In this document: one piece after another, positions 3,108 to 10,037 of the stretch
How positions within the stretch are numbered: the first letter of the stretch is position 1
Layout: every line of letters begins with the position of its first letter
DNA from: Bacteroides sp.
GTDB taxonomy: Bacteria; Bacteroidota; Bacteroidia; Bacteroidales; Muribaculaceae
Assembly (NCBI GenBank): GCA_014801655.1
Contig: JAAVDT010000061.1
Span: 42,088 to 54,520 of the forward strand
Direction: 5' to 3'
Length of the DNA stretch: 12,433 nucleotides
Position numbers and translations under genes: made by a program
Notes under the pieces: generated by a model
What the model saw: only the letters and a program-made list of their open reading frames with translations
What the model was told of the DNA's origin: nothing
The model's database searches: none

Positions 3108-3238
3108 TTCAGCAAATCTGCCTGTGGCGGCTCAGGCCCGCGGTTGCATGGGGGAATTTGCAGACAATCTGATTAACGTCAGTCAAGATGTTTTTCCTGA
3201 CAACACAACACACATTAACTAATAAACATCAATCCTTC

Positions 3239-3754
3239 ATGTTCTTCAACAAAACCATCACCATTGTAAGCATCTTGCTCGCAGCCGGATTCTCCGCTGC
3301 GCAGGCCGACATCAAGCCCTGCATCATCGCGCGAGGCGACGGCGTTGCAGACCACAATGCCGATCTCGAGCAGTTTGACCGCATCATGTTCGGGCAGGAG
3401 TCGATGACCCTCACGAACTCCGTCGACCCCACCGTGAGCCACGAGCTGTCCTATTCGGAGTACAACCGCATCCTCGTGGGCCTCGCCGAACCAACAGTCG
3501 ATCTCGCAGAAATCACCGAAACCCACACCGCGCCCGATGGCTGCCTGCATTACGACAAGGCCGCCCAAACCATCACCGTCCTCAACGCTGCCGAGCCACT
3601 GAGCGTCATCGTCTACAACCCTTCCGGCGCGCTGCTTCTCAAAGGCACACTCCGTCAGGGCGAAACCCTCTCGGTTTCAACCTTGCCTCAGGGACTCAAC
3701 ATAGTGGTAGCCACCGGCTCATCAGCCACCTACACCCTCAAATTCTTCAAGTAA
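3239..3754 (+). CDS. Small exported protein with possible C-terminal sorting-like domain
   Basis: I do not recognise the family. The 171-aa product starts MFFNKTITIVSILLAAGFSA, a good signal peptide probably cleaved at AQA|DIK. An upstream in-frame ATG at 3188 would add 17 polar residues before the signal peptide, so ATG 3239 is preferred. The mature N-terminal half has two similar short motifs, LEQFDRIMFG and YSEYNRILVG, of the kind seen in many short Bacteroidales exported proteins. The last 60 residues (ITVLNAAEPLSVIVYNPSG, LPQGLNIVVATG, ending LKFFK) resemble the type A C-terminal sorting domain of the type IX secretion system, but whether this organism has that system is not visible. Codon use is more GC-rich than in the three genes that follow. 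Its relation to the downstream trio is unknown. Confidence 0.7.
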   Translation: MFFNKTITIVSILLAAGFSAAQADIKPCIIARGDGVADHNADLEQFDRIMFGQESMTLTNSVDPTVSHELSYSEYNRILVGLAEPTVDLAEITETHTAPDGCLHYDKAAQTITVLNAAEPLSVIVYNPSGALLLKGTLRQGETLSVSTLPQGLNIVVATGSSATYTLKFFK

Positions 3755-3858: not shown

Positions 3859-3912
3859 GGTTTCCCCTGGCTTCACCCGAATTGTGGTTTCCTCAGGCTT
3901 CACCCTGATTGT
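3859..3912 (+). repeat. Tandem 27-bp duplication
   Basis: Two adjacent 27-bp units (3859-3885 and 3886-3912) share GGTTTCC, then GGCTTCACCC, then ATTGT, differing at about five positions. The second unit overlaps the left arm of the 40-bp inverted repeat, so the first looks like a duplicated edge of that element. Confidence 0.85.
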
Positions 3913-3995
3913 AGGGACGCACCCTGGTGCGTCCGCAAACGTCTGATTATCAACTCGGACGCACCAGGGTGCGTCCCTACAATCAGGGTGAAGCC
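3896..3995. repeat. Perfect 40-bp inverted repeat, each arm itself palindromic
   Basis: The left arm 3896-3935 is the exact reverse complement of the right arm 3956-3995, with a 20-bp spacer. Within each arm GGACGCACC and GGTGCGTCC form a smaller hairpin. The element sits in the 327-bp spacer between the exported protein (3239-3754) and the first FGE-like gene; apart from the 27-bp duplication and the FGE leader, I see no gene there. Paired palindromes of this kind resemble REP/REPIN or MITE elements. Its long stem could also attenuate transcription. Confidence 0.9.
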
Positions 3996-4081: not shown

Positions 4082-4927
4082 ATGATAACAAACAAACTAC
4101 TCAAAAGCATAATGCTCGGTGGCCTTTGCGCCGTTGCCGTCTTCGCCTACGCCGAAACAGAAAAAGTAATCAAGGTTTACAATAACGGTGAAGTGGTGGC
4201 AAGATACTGGCTCACTGATTTCGAATACATCCAGATTGAAGATGTCGAAACATCCGAAACGGATAAAGATGTTGAGACCATCACCGTCAATGGCGTCAGC
4301 TTCGATATGATCAAGGTAGAGGGTGGCACCTACAAGATGGGCAGCAATGATGGTGAATCTAATGAAAAACCCGTACATGATGAAACGATAGCGACCTTCC
4401 AGATAGGCAAGACCGAGGTAACTCAGGAACTTTGGGAGGCGGTGATGGGGACTAATCCCTCATATTTCAAGGGCGAAGCCAACCTGCCCGTTGAAAATGT
4501 ATCTTGGACAGACTGCAACACGTTCATCGCCAAACTCAATGAATTGACCGGCAAAAACTTCCGCCTGCCGACCGAGGCAGAATGGGAGTATGCAGCGAGA
4601 GGTGGCAACAATTCACAGGGCTATACTTACTCAGGGAGCAATACCATTGAGGACGTTGCGTGGTACGGTTCAAAGTCATCATCAAAGACTCACCCCGTAG
4701 CCAAGAAGCAGCCGAATGAACTAGGCATTTATGACATGTCAGGTAATGTATGGGAATGGACTTTTGATAAGTATAGCAGCAGTTACAGCAGCGAACGCAC
4801 GAGCTCGTACCGCGTTAGTCGCGGCGGCAGCTGGTACTTCGGTACTACTTACTCGCGCGTTGCTTATCGCGACAGCGTTAGCGAGTCCACTGCGAACTAC
4901 TTCATTGGGTTCCGCCTGGCTCTCTAA
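4082..4927 (+). CDS. Exported FGE/SUMF-fold protein, putative DGR variable protein 1
   Basis: The 281-aa protein has a signal peptide (1 to about 25, AVFAYA|ETE), a short segment VIKVYNNGEVVARYWLTDF shared with its two paralogues, and an FGE-sulfatase domain from about residue 70 (FDMIKVEGGTYKMGS, LPTEAEWEYAARGG, MSGNVWEWT, GFRLAL at the end). Formylglycine-generating enzymes need two cysteines in the RVxxGGSxxC....C region. Here those positions are Phe and Ser, so it is unlikely to be a sulfatase activator. The fold is that of C-type lectins and of DGR variable proteins. Residues 243-275 are hypervariable against the paralogues in a way that matches adenine mutagenesis (see findings). It is probably a secreted or periplasmic binding protein; no lipobox precedes a cysteine. 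It is first of three tandem copies, and its centre is nearly identical to copy 3. Confidence 0.85.
   Translation: MITNKLLKSIMLGGLCAVAVFAYAETEKVIKVYNNGEVVARYWLTDFEYIQIEDVETSETDKDVETITVNGVSFDMIKVEGGTYKMGSNDGESNEKPVHDETIATFQIGKTEVTQELWEAVMGTNPSYFKGEANLPVENVSWTDCNTFIAKLNELTGKNFRLPTEAEWEYAARGGNNSQGYTYSGSNTIEDVAWYGSKSSSKTHPVAKKQPNELGIYDMSGNVWEWTFDKYSSSYSSERTSSYRVSRGGSWYFGTTYSRVAYRDSVSESTANYFIGFRLAL
4808..4924 (+). other. Putative DGR variable region, copy 1
   Basis: Codons 243-281 of the first FGE-like gene. They encode the pattern RVxRGGSW, six variable residues, RVAYR, four variable residues, ES, variable residues, GFRLAL. Variable codons end in C, T or G, never A. The invariant GC-rich tail CGCCTGGCTCTC (4913-4924) would be the mutagenic-homology initiation side. 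Third bases at several framework codons (GTT, CGC, GGC, GCT) differ from copies 2 and 3, so this copy may be older or templated differently. Confidence 0.65.
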
Positions 4928-4948
4928 GTTTACAACTTCTTCCCTTTG

Positions 4949-4967
4949 AATCTGCGATTTTTAGATT
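4949..4967 (+). other. Short hairpin downstream of variable region 1
   Basis: AATCT (4949-4953) pairs with AGATT (4963-4967), 22 nt after the stop codon. The hairpin recurs in a 6-bp form after copy 2. Known DGR targets often have a hairpin shortly after the variable region; here the stem is weak, and it could equally be part of a terminator. Confidence 0.4.
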
Positions 4968-5100
4968 GTAGTCTCAGGAGGATGGAGGGGGTTGGAGAAA
5001 TTTAATCATGCGGATACACTCTAGTGCTTCCCTCTCCTTGTGAACGCACGGATGTGTACAACAATTCTGAAAATTTGACAGCATCTGAAGCAACCTCCTG

Positions 5101-5166
5101 CACCGACATTTAAATGACAAACCACAATCACAAAGCAATTAACCAACCGAAAAACCAAATCACACA
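5101..5166 (+). promoter_or_regulatory. Conserved 66-nt leader, copy 2
   Basis: This copy is nearly the same as the leader of the first paralogue and ends directly at the ATG. Upstream, at about 5065-5100, a stretch with GAAAATTTGACAGCATC is also shared with copy 3 (about 6214-6239) but not with copy 1, so the duplicated unit is longer between copies 2 and 3. Confidence 0.55.
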
Positions 5167-6003
5167 ATGATGACAAACAAACTACTCAAAAGCATAATGC
5201 TTGGTGGCCTATGCGCTGTGGCTCTCTTGGCCTACGCCGAAACAGAAAAAGTAATCAAGGTCTACAATAACGGAGAAGTAGTGGCCACCCACAAACTCTC
5301 GGATTTCGAATACATCCAGGTTGAAGATGCCGAATTGAATCAAGATGTTGAAACCTTCACCGTCAACGGCGTCAGCTTCGATATGATCAAAGTTGTAGGG
5401 GGCACCTACAAGATGGGCAGCAATGATGGATCTTCACATGAAAAACCCGTACATGATGAAACGGTTGCGACTTTTCAGATAGGCAAGACCGAAGTGACGC
5501 AGGAACTTTGGCAGGCAGTGATGGGCAGTAATCCCTCAAACTTCAAGGGCGAAGCCAACCTGCCGGTTGAAATGGTTTCATGGACAGAATGCAACACATT
5601 CATAACTAAACTCAACGCAGCAACCGGCAAGAACTTCCGCTTGCCGACAGAAGCGGAATGGGAGTATGCTGCACGTGGAGGCAATAAATCTCAGGGCTAT
5701 ACCTATTCGGGCAGCAATACTATTGGTGATGTTGCGTGGTATGACGGAAACTCATCCTCAAAGACTCACCCCGTTGCTCAGAAGCAGCCGAATGAACTTG
5801 GTGTATATGATATGTCAGGTAACGTATGGGAATGGACCTCTGACAAGTATAGCGACAATTACAGCAGTGCACGCACGAGCTCTCATCGCGTCCATCGTGG
5901 CGGTAACTGGGGCATCAATGCTCCTGGTGCGCGCGTTGCCTTTCGCGGCTACGATTACGAGTCCTCTGCGACCAGCGGCCTTGGGCTGCGCCTGGCTCTC
6001 TGA
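5167..6003 (+). CDS. Exported FGE/SUMF-fold protein, putative DGR variable protein 2
   Basis: The 278-aa second paralogue has the same layout: signal peptide ending near LLAYA|ETE, the VIKVYNNGEVVATHKLSDF segment, then the FGE-sulfatase domain from about residue 66. Two ATG codons stand in tandem at 5167 and 5170; the first is taken because it keeps the 66-nt leader at its constant length. Its central domain differs from copies 1 and 3 mainly by ordinary third-base substitutions, so by body sequence it is the most diverged of the three. In the last 40 codons, however, it shares nearly every third base with copy 3. The FGE catalytic cysteine positions hold Ile and Ala. It probably binds a ligand through its variable C-terminal face; the ligand is unknown. 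It ends with TGA where the others use TAA. Confidence 0.85.
   Translation: MMTNKLLKSIMLGGLCAVALLAYAETEKVIKVYNNGEVVATHKLSDFEYIQVEDAELNQDVETFTVNGVSFDMIKVVGGTYKMGSNDGSSHEKPVHDETVATFQIGKTEVTQELWQAVMGSNPSNFKGEANLPVEMVSWTECNTFITKLNAATGKNFRLPTEAEWEYAARGGNKSQGYTYSGSNTIGDVAWYDGNSSSKTHPVAQKQPNELGVYDMSGNVWEWTSDKYSDNYSSARTSSHRVHRGGNWGINAPGARVAFRGYDYESSATSGLGLRLAL
5884..6000 (+). other. Putative DGR variable region, copy 2
   Basis: Codons 240-278. The framework RVxRGGxW, ARVA, R, ES, LGLRLAL is kept and the positions between are hypervariable. It aligns without gaps to copies 1 and 3. Against copy 3 there are 25 differences at codon positions 1 and 2 and one at position 3 (codon 35 of the block). The invariant GC-rich tail is at 5989-6000. 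Confidence 0.7.
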
Positions 6004-6024
6004 GTTTACAATTTCTTTCCTTTG

Positions 6025-6044
6025 AATCTGCGATTTTTCAGATT
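6025..6044 (+). other. Short hairpin downstream of variable region 2
   Basis: AATCTG (6025-6030) pairs perfectly with CAGATT (6039-6044) around an 8-nt loop, 21 nt after the stop codon. The position is the same as in copy 1. After copy 3 the pairing is largely lost. Confidence 0.45.
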
Positions 6045-6111
6045 GTAGGCTCAGGGGAAGGATGGGGTTGGAGAAATTTAATCATGCGGACACTCTGGAG
6101 CTATCCTCTCC

Positions 6112-6190
6112 TTGTAGGAACGCATGGTTCGTGCTTCAGACGATAACACGTTGATTACCAACTGGACGCACGAGCCGTGCGTCCCTACAA
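6112..6190. repeat. Imperfect inverted repeat, diverged relative of the 3896-3995 element
   Basis: The 26-bp arms 6112-6137 and 6165-6190 match at 22 positions. The right arm GACGCACGAGCCGTGCGTCC is itself palindromic. The core GATTAYCAACT of the loop and the outer TTGTAGG also occur in the perfect repeat at 3896-3995, so both belong to one family. The rest of the 314-bp spacer holds the post-variable-region hairpin and the leader of copy 3. Confidence 0.8.
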
Positions 6191-6251
6191 TTTGGATAAA
6201 TCAACTCCGACGGAATTCTGAAAATTTGACAGCATCCGCAGCAATCTCCTG

Positions 6252-6317
6252 CACCGACATTTAGATGACAAACCACACTCGCGAAACAATTAATCAACCG
6301 AAAAAGCAAATCACACA
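6252..6317 (+). promoter_or_regulatory. Conserved 66-nt leader, copy 3
   Basis: Same length and start (CACCGACATTTAGATGACAA) as the other two leaders, with scattered substitutions (for example CACTCGCG in the middle). It ends at the ATG of the third paralogue. Confidence 0.55.
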
Positions 6318-7172
6318 ATGAAAACGAACAAGCTACTCAAAAGCATAATGTTAGGCAGTCTTTGCGCTGTGGCCGTCTTGGCCTACGCCGAGAAAGAAAA
6401 AGTAATTAGGGTTTACAATAACGGTGAAGTGGTGGCAACCTACAAACTCTCTGATTTTGAATACATCCAGGTTGAAGATGTCATTGTAGATGACGAAACA
6501 TCCGAAATGATTAAAGATGTTGAGAACATCACCGTAAACGGCGTCAGCTTCGACATGATAAAGGTTGAAGGAGGCACCTACAGGATGGGCAGTACTGTCA
6601 TTGATGTTGAAATGCCCATACATGATGAAACGGTTGCTACGTTTCAGATAGGCAAGACCGAAGTTACTCAGGAGCTTTGGGAGGCAGTGATGGGGACTAA
6701 TCCCTCAAACTTCAAGGGTGAAGCCAACCTGCCCGTTGAAAATGTATCTTGGACAGATTGCAATACGTTCATCGCCAAACTCAATGAATTGACCGGCAAA
6801 AACTTCCGCCTGCCGACCGAGGCAGAATGGGAGTATGCAGCGAGAGGTGGCAATAAGTCTCAGCGCTACACTTATTCAGGCAGCTACACCCTTGGAGATG
6901 TGGCATGGTACAAAGACAATGCATCCTCAAAGACACATCCTGTAGCTCAGAAGCAGCCGAATGAGCTTGGCATCTATGACATGTCGGGCAATGTATTTGA
7001 ATGGACGTCAGATAAGTATAGCACAGATTACAGCCAACCTCGCACGAGCTCTAATCGCGTCCTTCGTGGCGGTAGCTGGTACTACATTGCTGTTTATGCG
7101 CGCGTTGCCTATCGCCACGACTATAGCGAGTCCACTACGAACGGCTACCTTGGGCTCCGCCTGGCTCTCTAA
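6318..7172 (+). CDS. Exported FGE/SUMF-fold protein, putative DGR variable protein 3
   Basis: The 284-aa third paralogue has a signal peptide (cleavage near VLAYA|EKE), the VIRVYNNGEVVATYKLSDF segment, a linker six residues longer than in copy 2, and the FGE-sulfatase domain from about residue 73. In its centre (6735-6853) it differs from copy 1 by only 2 of 119 bases, which suggests recent duplication or gene conversion. The usual GNVWEW reads GNVFEW here. The FGE catalytic cysteine positions hold Tyr and Ala. As in the other copies there is no lipobox and no C-terminal anchor, so the protein is expected to be periplasmic or secreted. It is followed by a large nested palindrome rather than another copy. 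Confidence 0.85.
   Translation: MKTNKLLKSIMLGSLCAVAVLAYAEKEKVIRVYNNGEVVATYKLSDFEYIQVEDVIVDDETSEMIKDVENITVNGVSFDMIKVEGGTYRMGSTVIDVEMPIHDETVATFQIGKTEVTQELWEAVMGTNPSNFKGEANLPVENVSWTDCNTFIAKLNELTGKNFRLPTEAEWEYAARGGNKSQRYTYSGSYTLGDVAWYKDNASSKTHPVAQKQPNELGIYDMSGNVFEWTSDKYSTDYSQPRTSSNRVLRGGSWYYIAVYARVAYRHDYSESTTNGYLGLRLAL
7053..7169 (+). other. Putative DGR variable region, copy 3
   Basis: Codons 246-284, gap-free against the other two copies. Against copy 1 there are 27 differences in the 120 nt including the stop codon, although the genes are almost identical 200 bp upstream. Variable codons again end in C, T or G. The invariant tail CGCCTGGCTCTC is at 7158-7169. Confidence 0.7.
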
Positions 7173-7224
7173 GTTTACAACTTTTTCCGATTTGGTCTGC
7201 TGTCTCCGATTGTAGGCTAAGGAG

Positions 7225-7508
7225 GAGGGGCGCGCCGGAGGTGTGCCGGTTGCTTATAACCCCAGGCGTAGAGACCCGTAGGGCTCGGAGCCTGGGGGGA
7301 TGGGGGATATACATACTATAATGGGAGCCTCGTAGAGGCGATGTTTTGTGGGGCGACAGGTTGTCGCATAGGGTATTCACCAACAAAAACACCGCCTCTA
7401 CGAGGCTCGAAGTATATAGCCTGCACTCTGCCTACCCCAGACTCCGAGTCCCTACGGGCCTCTGCGTCTGGGGTTTGGAATGACCGACGCACCTCCGGTG
7501 CGCCTCTC
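7225..7508. repeat. Three concentric inverted repeats (nested palindromic elements)
   Basis: Three arm pairs share one centre near 7366: outer 7225-7250 with 7483-7508, middle 7258-7297 with 7435-7475, inner 7325-7351 with 7380-7408. All are imperfect, but most positions pair. At the tip GCGACA (7353-7358) pairs with TGTCGC (7362-7367). Several arms are themselves palindromic, for example GCCTCGTAGAGGC. I see no gene in the 531-bp spacer 7173-7703; short open frames through it merely follow the repeats. It could be several elements inserted into one another, and transcribed it would form one very long hairpin that may end transcription of the trio. Confidence 0.85.
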
Positions 7509-7703: not shown

Positions 7704-10037
7704 ATGAAGAAAATCAGCGTTTCGCTTGCTTTGCTGGGTGCTTCGGCGGTGATGGTTAGTGCCGCTGACCCGGTGGATTATGTGAATACTCTTTCGGGCA
7801 CTCAGTCGAAGTATGAGCTTTCGACCGGTAACACTCTGCCTATCGTGACTATGCCTTGGGGTATGAATGGCTGGACTCCTCAGACCGGCAAGATGGGCGA
7901 TGGTTGGGTTTACACCTACGATGCCGATAAAATAGTGGGTTTCAAACAGACCCACCGCCCCTCGCCATGGATCAATGACTATGGTCAGTTTTCGCTGATG
8001 CCTGTGACCGGTAAGCCGGTGTTTGATGAGCAGCAGCGTGCAAGCTGGTTCAGCCACAAGGCTGAGAAGGCTACGCCTTATTATTATAAGGTGTATCTCG
8101 CCGACCATGACGTGACCACGGAGTTTGCGCCGACCGAACGTGCCGTGGCTTTCCGCTTCACTTTCCCGGAGGCGGAACTTTCAACGGTGGTGATTGATGC
8201 GTTTGATCATGGTTCAGCCGTGACTGTCGATAAGGCCAACCGTCGAATCACGGGCTACACCACTAAAAACTCCGGCGGCGTGCCTGAGAATTTCAAGAAC
8301 TATTTCGTGATTGAATTTGACACGGATTTCGGCTACACGGCCACCGTGCTCGACAGCGTGATTTCTGAAGGTGTCAGCTCGGCTGCAGGCAATCATGCCG
8401 GTGCAATCGTGGGTTTCAAGACCCATAAGGGTCAGACGGTCAATGCCCGCGTGGCCTCCTCATTTATCTCTCCCGAGCAGGCTCTGATCAATCTCAAGGA
8501 GCTTGGCGACGGCGACTTTGACCGCATCTGCAAGGAGGGCCGCGCCCGCTGGAACGATGTGCTCGGCCGCATCGAAGTGGCTCCCGACAGCTATGACTTT
8601 CAGCTCGACCGCCTGCGCACATTCTACTCCAACCTCTATCATGCGCTGCTCTTCCCTCACGCATTTTATGAAATCGATGCTGCCGGCAAGGTGGTTCACT
8701 ACAGCCCCTACAACGGCGAGGTGTGTCCCGGATATATGTTTACCGATACCGGCTTCTGGGATACGTTCCGCGCTCTGTTCCCGCTTGTTAATCTCGTGTA
8801 CCCCTCCGAGAGTACCAAGATTCAGGATGGCCTCGTCAACGCCTATCTTGAAAGCGGCTTCCTGCCTGAGTGGGCATCGCCGGGCCATCGCGGATGCATG
8901 GTGGGCAACAACAGCGCATCCGTTGTTGCAGACGCTTATCTCAACGGCATCCGTGGCTACGACATTGAAAAGCTCTGGGAAGCAGTGACCTCCGGCGCTC
9001 ACAAAGTGCATCCCGAAGTCTCCTCGACCGGCCGTCTGGGTCATGAATATTATGATGCCCTGGGCTATGTGCCCTATAACGTGGGCATCAATGAAAGCGC
9101 AGCCCGCACGCTCGAATATGCCTACGACGACTGGTGTATCTATCAGCTCGGCAAGGCTTTGGGTAAATCGAAGAAGGAACTTGAACCATATGCCAAGGCT
9201 GCGATGAACTATCGCAACCTTTTCGATAAGGAACACAATCTGATGCGCGGACGCAACGAAGACGGCACTTTCCAAACCCCCTTCAATCCGCTGAAATGGG
9301 GCGATGCGTTCACTGAAGGGAACTCTTGGCACTACACCTGGTCGGTGTTTCACGACCCGCAGGGTCTCATCAACCTGATGGGTGGTGCGAGCGAGTTCAA
9401 CCAGATGATGGACTCAGTGTTCACCGTGCCGCCGGTGTTTGACGACAGCTATTATGGCTTCCCCATCCACGAAATCCGCGAGATGCAGATCATGAATATG
9501 GGTAACTATGCGCATGGCAATCAGCCGATTCAGCACATGATTTATCTCTATGACTGGTCGGGCGAACCCTGGAAAGCACAATATTGGGTGCGCGAGGTGA
9601 TGAACCGCATGTACACCCCCAACCCCGACGGCTATTGCGGCGACGAAGACAATGGTCAGACATCGGCCTGGTATGTGTTCTCGGCCATGGGCTTCTATCC
9701 GGTGGCTCCCGGTTCGGGCGAATATGCGCTCGGCGCACCGCTCTTCAAGTCTGTGAAGCTGCATCTTGAAAATGGCAACACCGTGACCATCAATGCTCCG
9801 GCCAACAGCGACACCAATCGCTACGTTGAGGCGCTGAGTGTCGACGGCAAACCCTACGACAAGAATTTCGTGACCTATACTCAGCTCACCGGTGGCGCAA
9901 CTCTTGATTTCACAATGGGTTCCAAACCCAACACCGAGCGTGGCACATCGGTTGAGGCGCGTCCTTATTCATTCTCCACAGCGGCCGATGCTCCCGTCAT
10001 CAAAGCTGCCAAGAAAACCTCTAAAAAACGTAAGTAA
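7704..10037 (+). CDS. GH92 family alpha-mannosidase, exported
   Basis: GH92 enzymes are calcium-dependent exo-acting alpha-mannosidases that trim mannose from N-glycans and yeast mannan by an inverting mechanism. The 777-aa product has a signal peptide (MKKISVSLALLGASAVMVSA), then the GH92 N-terminal beta-sandwich (PVDYVNTLSG, NTLPIVTMPWGMNGWTPQTG) and the catalytic alpha/alpha barrel. Landmarks are GCMVGNNSASVVADAY, TEGNSWHYTW with the probable general acid Glu538, HGNQPIQHMIYLY, and GDEDNGQTSAWY with Asp647 and Asp649. These match, with a constant offset of five, the residues I recall for Bacteroides BT3990 (Glu533, Asp642, Asp644). Linkage specificity cannot be read reliably. There is no lipobox, so it is probably periplasmic; the C-terminus is a short basic tail (KKTSKKRK). 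It has its own promoter and no SusC/SusD pair nearby. A GYF_2 protein follows after 5 bp. Confidence 0.95.
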   Translation: MKKISVSLALLGASAVMVSAADPVDYVNTLSGTQSKYELSTGNTLPIVTMPWGMNGWTPQTGKMGDGWVYTYDADKIVGFKQTHRPSPWINDYGQFSLMPVTGKPVFDEQQRASWFSHKAEKATPYYYKVYLADHDVTTEFAPTERAVAFRFTFPEAELSTVVIDAFDHGSAVTVDKANRRITGYTTKNSGGVPENFKNYFVIEFDTDFGYTATVLDSVISEGVSSAAGNHAGAIVGFKTHKGQTVNARVASSFISPEQALINLKELGDGDFDRICKEGRARWNDVLGRIEVAPDSYDFQLDRLRTFYSNLYHALLFPHAFYEIDAAGKVVHYSPYNGEVCPGYMFTDTGFWDTFRALFPLVNLVYPSESTKIQDGLVNAYLESGFLPEWASPGHRGCMVGNNSASVVADAYLNGIRGYDIEKLWEAVTSGAHKVHPEVSSTGRLGHEYYDALGYVPYNVGINESAARTLEYAYDDWCIYQLGKALGKSKKELEPYAKAAMNYRNLFDKEHNLMRGRNEDGTFQTPFNPLKWGDAFTEGNSWHYTWSVFHDPQGLINLMGGASEFNQMMDSVFTVPPVFDDSYYGFPIHEIREMQIMNMGNYAHGNQPIQHMIYLYDWSGEPWKAQYWVREVMNRMYTPNPDGYCGDEDNGQTSAWYVFSAMGFYPVAPGSGEYALGAPLFKSVKLHLENGNTVTINAPANSDTNRYVEALSVDGKPYDKNFVTYTQLTGGATLDFTMGSKPNTERGTSVEARPYSFSTAADAPVIKAAKKTSKKRK

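Follow-up and report, generated by a model that had tools for sequence, protein, structure and literature searches.

The window, a 12,433-nucleotide stretch from the genome of a Bacteroides sp. of the family Muribaculaceae, carries three tandem paralogous genes, w1, w2 and w3, for secreted proteins with the formylglycine-generating enzyme (FGE)-sulfatase fold (Table 1), and it raises the question of what has varied the 3' ends of these genes. In the established mechanism of a diversity-generating retroelement (DGR), a reverse transcriptase (RT) makes errors opposite adenine when it copies a template, and the resulting cDNA takes the place of a target gene's 3' end. We consider it very probable that w1–w3 are paralogous DGR targets, in which the last 41 codons form a variable repeat (VR) in a C-type-lectin-like (FGE-sulfatase) fold. 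A preliminary description of the window had already read the gene ends as products of adenine mutagenesis, and this reading is now supported by the codon pattern, by the adenines of homologous templates and by tail-only variation in relatives.

Codon pattern of the gene tails

For the 39 sense codons in front of the stops (4808-4924, 5884-6000 and 7053-7169), the preliminary description had counted 22 codons that change the amino acid, 19 of them with a third base common to w1, w2 and w3, and 13 invariant codons, 12 of them without A; variable codons were said to end in C, T or G. Our recount gave the same figures: one of the 13 invariant codons contains A, the third bases of the variable codons are C (31), T (28) and G (7) and never A (0), and the remaining four codons differ only synonymously. 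As a control, 198 upstream segments of 39 aligned codons were examined, in which at most 14 codons change the amino acid and at most 10 do so with the third base kept. The complete upstream part has 236 aligned codons; 52 of these differ in amino acid, and 22 of the 52 retain the third base. In our alignment, the variable block starts two codons before the start given earlier (at 4802, 5878 and 7047), the extra codons encoding SS in all three proteins.

The paralogs show the same reversal when compared in pairs. Between w2 and w3, changes at codon bases 1, 2 and 3 number 13, 12 and 1 in the 41-codon tail versus 27, 21 and 83 in the core (Fisher p 5.8e-9). The corresponding numbers are 16/13/8 versus 23/16/74 for w1 and w2 (p 3.5e-6) and 13/8/7 versus 21/23/66 for w1 and w3 (p 1.3e-3), the pattern of w1 being less clean than that of w2 and w3, with more third-base changes.

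The tail family is also present on contigs C30, C63, C18, C23 and C36 of the same genome. The C63 and C18 tails have identical protein sequences, and C63 and C23 have neighbour genes in common; these contigs are therefore partly redundant, and four distinct further tails remain. The combination of C23-like neighbours with the C18 tail on C63 may stem from targets that recombined with each other or from an error of assembly. A template inferred by placing AAY at the variable codons matched, among 34 genomes of the genus, only the genome itself and a second one, G004, which has two family members with 64 and 69% identity to w3 and differing tails. Among seven sequences (w1–w3, C30, C63, C23 and C36, the two from G004 being left out), the codon-position reversal between tail and core has p<0.05 in 20 of the 21 pairs, the sole pair above this value being w3 with C36 (p 0.081). 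In the tails of C36 and C23 third-base changes are more frequent, and these tails look older.

Homologous templates and variation in relatives

Searched in 397 genomes of the family, with two candidates scored per genome, the inferred template was matched in 16 at E<=1e-5, and 15 stretches were taken for comparison. In other genera of the family, it led to genuine non-coding templates located next to RTs. In 10 of the 15 stretches an RT and an HRDC gene lie near an FGE gene, in the order target, HRDC gene, RT, and template or template-like repeat, and nine of these 10 yielded a template/VR pair. The finder kept pairs with >=70% of their differences at template A, so the shares it returned are not an unbiased sample: 15/16 differences at A in L155, 13/13 in L157, 23/24 in L158, 24/24 in L159, 12/14 in L161, 16/17 in L162, 9/11 in L163 and 18/19 in L165, and 16/21 and 17/21 for the two VRs that accompany the one template of L160. 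In the latter locus (L160:5682-10113, genome G258), the single template has an FGE target on either side, and the two targets differ in their tails. The same filter gave spurious pairs in L164 and L165 and missed L156, which has an RT, an HRDC gene and a template-like repeat, with non-A differences seen by eye. With the threshold at >=80%, 80 GTDB loci and L013, the locus on contig C34 of the own genome, returned pairs from seven loci, one of which (L122) consists of overlapping repeats. The other five family stretches (L164 and L166–L169) contain FGE genes with similar tails and no RT nearby; in L164, at least four such genes stand in a row.

The homologous DGR L155 belongs to a different genus of the family, and its target is the one most like w3 in the panel (68%). 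Nucleotides that vary among w1–w3 occur at 25 of the 31 sites where the L155 template has A versus 17 of the 92 others (p 7.3e-10); when only codon bases 1 and 2 are counted, the numbers are 24 of 30 versus 10 of 52 (p 9.5e-8). Variable sites thus face adenines of homologous templates, as the preliminary description had expected. Eleven homologous templates were tested in this way, of which L157, L161 and L163 have an additional codon and are out of register; the weakest result is that of L163, with 20 of 34 A sites variable versus 22 of 89 others. Judged against these homologous, non-cognate templates, the variation in w1–w3 fits the restriction to a C-terminal block and to template-A bases that is expected of a DGR target.

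Protein databases show the same restriction in close relatives. A search with w3 returned 4403 proteins at E<=1e-60, 120 of which were used for comparison; several close relatives are labelled Paramuribaculum sp. or Muribaculaceae in their source records. Six near-identical proteins (P0018, P0022, P0025, P0026, P0028 and P0030), picked after the core/tail identity comparison had been seen, vary in three of 240 core columns versus 18 of 41 tail columns. Of the tail columns in which the L155 template has A at base 1 or 2, 16 of 17 vary, versus two of the 24 others. In 50 family proteins, chosen by their length and the form of their tail out of the 120 listed of the 4403, Lys, Glu, Gln, Met and Trp account for five of 650 residues at AAY columns versus 2199 of 8968 in the core, a scarcity that would follow from third bases remaining C or T. 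In two further proteins, P0003 and P0004, the w1 tail is present unaltered, and the core is only about 0.91 identical to that of w1, as if the tail had moved between paralogs.

Templates and VRs also differ at their 3' ends. At the stop region, AG is followed by C in 10 of 10 templates, and by T in nine and G in two of 11 VRs, the L157 VR being counted as T after a one-base shift. All three of w1–w3 have the VR-type T, which is also present in FGE genes without a detected RT (L049 and L053). By analogy, this difference resembles that between the two forms of the initiation of mutagenic homing sequence, IMH and IMH*, which distinguish VR and template ends in Bordetella phage and Treponema denticola (available text of PMC4891356). 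A stem located after the stops (4928-4997, 6004-6073 and 7173-7242) was considered as a DGR hairpin or cruciform and is not used as evidence: its z-scores for w1, w2 and w3 are −2.70, −5.24 and −0.03 as RNA and −0.03, −1.16 and +2.00 as DNA, and two of 16 pairs have changes on both sides. The stem exceeds shuffled sequences as RNA in w1 and w2, and neither in w3 nor as DNA.

Search for the cognate cassette

The cognate template of w1–w3 would be a non-coding copy of the tail with AAC or AAT at the variable codons and an end like TAAGCTTACA; an HRDC gene and a DGR RT would be its neighbours. The search for RT and template proposed in the preliminary description succeeded in its first part only. 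Contig C34 of the same genome contains a complete DGR (L013:5434-8360), made up of an FGE target, an HRDC gene, an RT and a template that is non-coding. This template and the tail of the target differ at 12 bases, 11 of which are A in the template. In the RT sequence one can read IGNLTSQ and YMDD, which we take to be DGR-type motifs. The locus is not beside w1–w3, to which it has at most a putative link, and its target has a different N-terminal part, with a weak CsgG match. The C34 template is homologous to the w1–w3 tails but different, matching the inferred template at 73% over 76 bases.

Two of the three RVT_1 matches in the genome are retron-like, the third being the C34 RT. One of the two is on C53, about 38 kb upstream of the window, and the other on C36; both were rejected as drivers of w1–w3, their best family matches being retron RTs. 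The two retron-like loci (L002:676-2322 on C53 and L001:676-2310 on C36) are similar, and in each the RT is followed by a second open reading frame (ORF) of the same kind.

A different RT is suggested by database proteins. P0015, a family member 81% identical to w3, and the RT P0137 come from source contigs of exactly the same size, 10728. Among 120 FGE and 115 RT proteins, there are four exact source-size matches above 4 kb versus a mean of 0.175 per shifted offset, with a maximum of 4; a shared source contig is a lead, not proof. P0137 is 47% identical to the C34 RT and has the same IGNLTSQ and YMDD stretches. At E<=1e-90 it matches seven of the 397 family genomes, which include neither the own genome nor any other of its genus. 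A P0137-like cassette is likely to lie outside the assembly or to have been lost. In viral contigs, P0137 has three relatives with at most 43% identity, and no viral carrier of the family was seen among the best 80 of 116 viral-contig relatives of P0026 (<=55% identity). In GTDB contigs, the best 80 of at least 574 relatives reach a top identity of 61%.

Several results weigh against w1–w3 being DGR targets. No fitting template was found in the own 84%-complete assembly by BLAST with the w3 tail (E<=10), with the inferred template or with a template pattern allowing up to three mismatches; the latter gave 26 matches, which are the seven known tails and 19 others at 2-3 mismatches, and its reversed control gave 17. 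The exact pattern had no match in GTDB contigs and none in viral contigs. The sole DGR-type RT found in the genome, that of C34, has its own, different template. Of the 41 tail positions, 41, 40 and 41 are kept in the listed proteins nearest to w1, w2 and w3, some of which may stem from the same sample, so that these particular alleles show no sign of having changed recently. In six proteins of the C36 type 38-41 positions are unaltered, and over all 36 pairs with cores >=98% alike, mean tail identity is 83%. At E<=1e-20 the C34 RT has no relative in genomes G131, G089, G090 and G364 (80, 96, 97 and 78% complete) and G004, although their FGE genes have similar tails; a T-type end, too, is present in FGE genes of genomes that lack such a relative. 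Tail layout alone is therefore no proof of a DGR.

Because the C34 template does not fit and no fitting template was found in the assembly, we regard w1–w3 as remote targets of a cassette that is either unassembled or lost. A DGR RT would copy a template rich in AAC and AAT codons, making errors opposite adenine, and the mutated cDNA would replace the 3' end of w1, w2 or w3. With RT and template away from the genes, the targets would be served in trans or would have been left after cassette loss. The cognate cassette is probably present in the cell and missing from the incomplete assembly, and diversification of w1–w3 in trans, like its present activity, is putative. We would give an even chance to a wider proposal, in which the triplet and the four further tails form a dispersed secreted lectin-fold repertoire whose diversity a single remote RT-template cassette maintains in trans. 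The members of such a repertoire would be still mutable, frozen or decayed, and one cell would show several independently drawn binding faces, beside the separate DGR on C34.

In a sub-case of this explanation, the tails were diversified by a DGR that has since been lost and are now inherited without hypermutation. Orphan targets are reported for T. denticola (PMC4891356, in the text available), and the missing cassette, the tails kept in near-identical listed copies of w1–w3 and the more numerous third-base changes in the C36 and C23 tails all agree with such a loss. However, tails alone vary in the six proteins of close relatives, the assembly is only 84% complete, and w2 and w3 differ at one third base in 41 tail codons, so their last exchange with a common template should not be old; on balance we consider complete loss rather unlikely. 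It is more doubtful still that the C34 RT diversifies w1–w3 in trans via a second, unassembled template. This RT is the only one of DGR type found in the genome, and one RT can serve remote targets (accessible parts of PMC4891356 and PMC10907252), but the C34 template fits its own target only, its match to the inferred template is the limited one given above, and the close family member P0015 is tied by source-contig size to another RT, P0137. Diversifying selection on an ordinary binding site combined with recombination, acting with no retroelement, is highly improbable: tandem paralogs can recombine, as the w1 tail of P0003 and P0004 may illustrate, and the tail motif layout is shared with FGE genes of genomes without a detected DGR, but selection by itself neither preserves the third base of codons whose first and second bases change nor excludes Lys, Glu, Gln, Met and Trp, and recombination moves tails without creating variation confined to homologous-template A sites.

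Fold, neighbourhood and known systems

The C-type-lectin-type fold that had been proposed for these proteins is upheld, as a sequence-based assignment, by the PF03781 matches of w1–w3 and by the best solved relative of w3, 2Y3C, which is T. denticola variable protein 1, a DGR variable protein. When w3 is aligned with a Streptomyces coelicolor-type FGE (6muj), it has Tyr and Ala in place of two cysteines that we take to be the FGE catalytic pair. As both are replaced, w3 is likely to be involved in binding rather than in FGE catalysis, and w1–w3 would be ligand-binding proteins.

All three proteins have a signal-like N-terminus, as judged by eye. Their genes are flanked on one side by a gene for a small protein with a type IX secretion system (T9SS) sorting tail and on the other by a GH92 glycosidase gene. 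Relatives of the small protein are encoded directly upstream of the FGE gene on C63, C18, C23 and C36 and at both G004 loci; because they recur at these six loci, the protein is a possible partner of the FGE targets. Upstream of w1 there is a perfect 36-base inverted repeat (3900-3935 and 3956-3991, with 20 bases between the arms). Its core, GGACGCACC, recurs in the genome, six times each in L016 and L020, three times each in L022 and L024 and twice in L021, and the repeat is perhaps a small repeated element. Two nested inverted repeats, with arms of 59 and 31 bases, lie 3' of w3 (7225-7508).

Table 1. Features of the analysed stretch (contig coordinates for the window, window coordinates for all other rows)
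Feature	Position	Strand	Basis or remark
Window, contig C53 of genome G000	42088-54520		2.29 Mb, 63-contig assembly, 84.16% complete
Small secreted protein, T9SS type A sorting tail	3188..3754	+	TIGR04183 E 7e-6
w1, secreted FGE-sulfatase-fold protein, probable DGR-type target gene, 281 aa	4082..4927	+	ORF; PF03781 E 9.7e-49; codon pattern
VR of w1, 41 codons	4802..4924	+	Codon pattern; homologous-template comparison
VR-type 3' end of w1, TAAGTTTACAA	4925..4935	+	T where homologous templates have C
w2, paralog of w1, 278 aa	5167..6003	+	ORF; PF03781 E 3.1e-47; codon pattern
VR of w2, 41 codons	5878..6000	+	Codon pattern; homologous-template comparison
VR-type 3' end of w2, TGAGTTTACAA	6001..6011	+	
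w3, paralog of w1 and w2, 284 aa	6318..7172	+	ORF; PF03781 E 1.3e-47; 2Y3C E 1e-37
VR of w3, 41 codons	7047..7169	+	Codon pattern; homologous-template comparison
VR-type 3' end of w3, TAAGTTTACAA	7170..7180	+	
GH92 glycosidase, downstream flank of w1–w3	7704-10037		

No description of this FGE-target family was found in the literature searched, bioRxiv and most subscription journals lying outside its coverage. Remote targets would escape the approach of PMC8144416, according to a statement in the available part of that paper. The present analysis indicates that DGR targets can be identified on the basis of their own genes, through codon position and comparison with homologous DGR templates, and it points to a family of genes, found in gut-type Bacteroidales, in which diversification in trans can be tested.

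The published precedent for w1–w3 is the TvpA-type DGR of T. denticola, with which they share FGE-sulfatase-fold targets, a C-terminal VR and remote targets (PMC4891356, as far as its text is available; 2Y3C). According to the same text, isolates with a complete system have two to seven FGE targets, many of them remote from the core cassette, and some isolates have targets without an RT or template. A template that fits the remote targets is known in complete T. denticola isolates, whereas none was found for w1–w3, and the arrangement of remote targets as a tandem triplet is unlike that described there. An HRDC accessory gene that overlaps the RT gene is a further shared feature, but the order differs: in T. 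denticola the accessory gene lies between template and RT, whereas cassettes of the C34 type have the order target, HRDC gene, RT, template.

The C34 DGR and its relatives in the family (L013, L155–L163 and L165) have in common with w1–w3 the FGE-fold target, the tail layout and the VR-type end, and their templates have AAY codons at the same columns as the w1–w3 tails. Unlike w1–w3, their targets adjoin the RT and template, and their template sequences differ from the w1–w3 tails. For the DGRs of Thiohalocapsa PB-PSB1, diversification of remote targets in trans has been argued (PMC10907252, in the parts available). Remote targets, FGE domains in some of them and incomplete loci that show diversity liken this system to w1–w3; its targets are putative conflict-system proteins, a role not found for w1–w3, and templates elsewhere in its genome match some of the remote targets, whereas for w1–w3 none was found. 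The reading of w1–w3 as DGR targets is well supported; they would be further remote or orphan targets in an already known class of systems.

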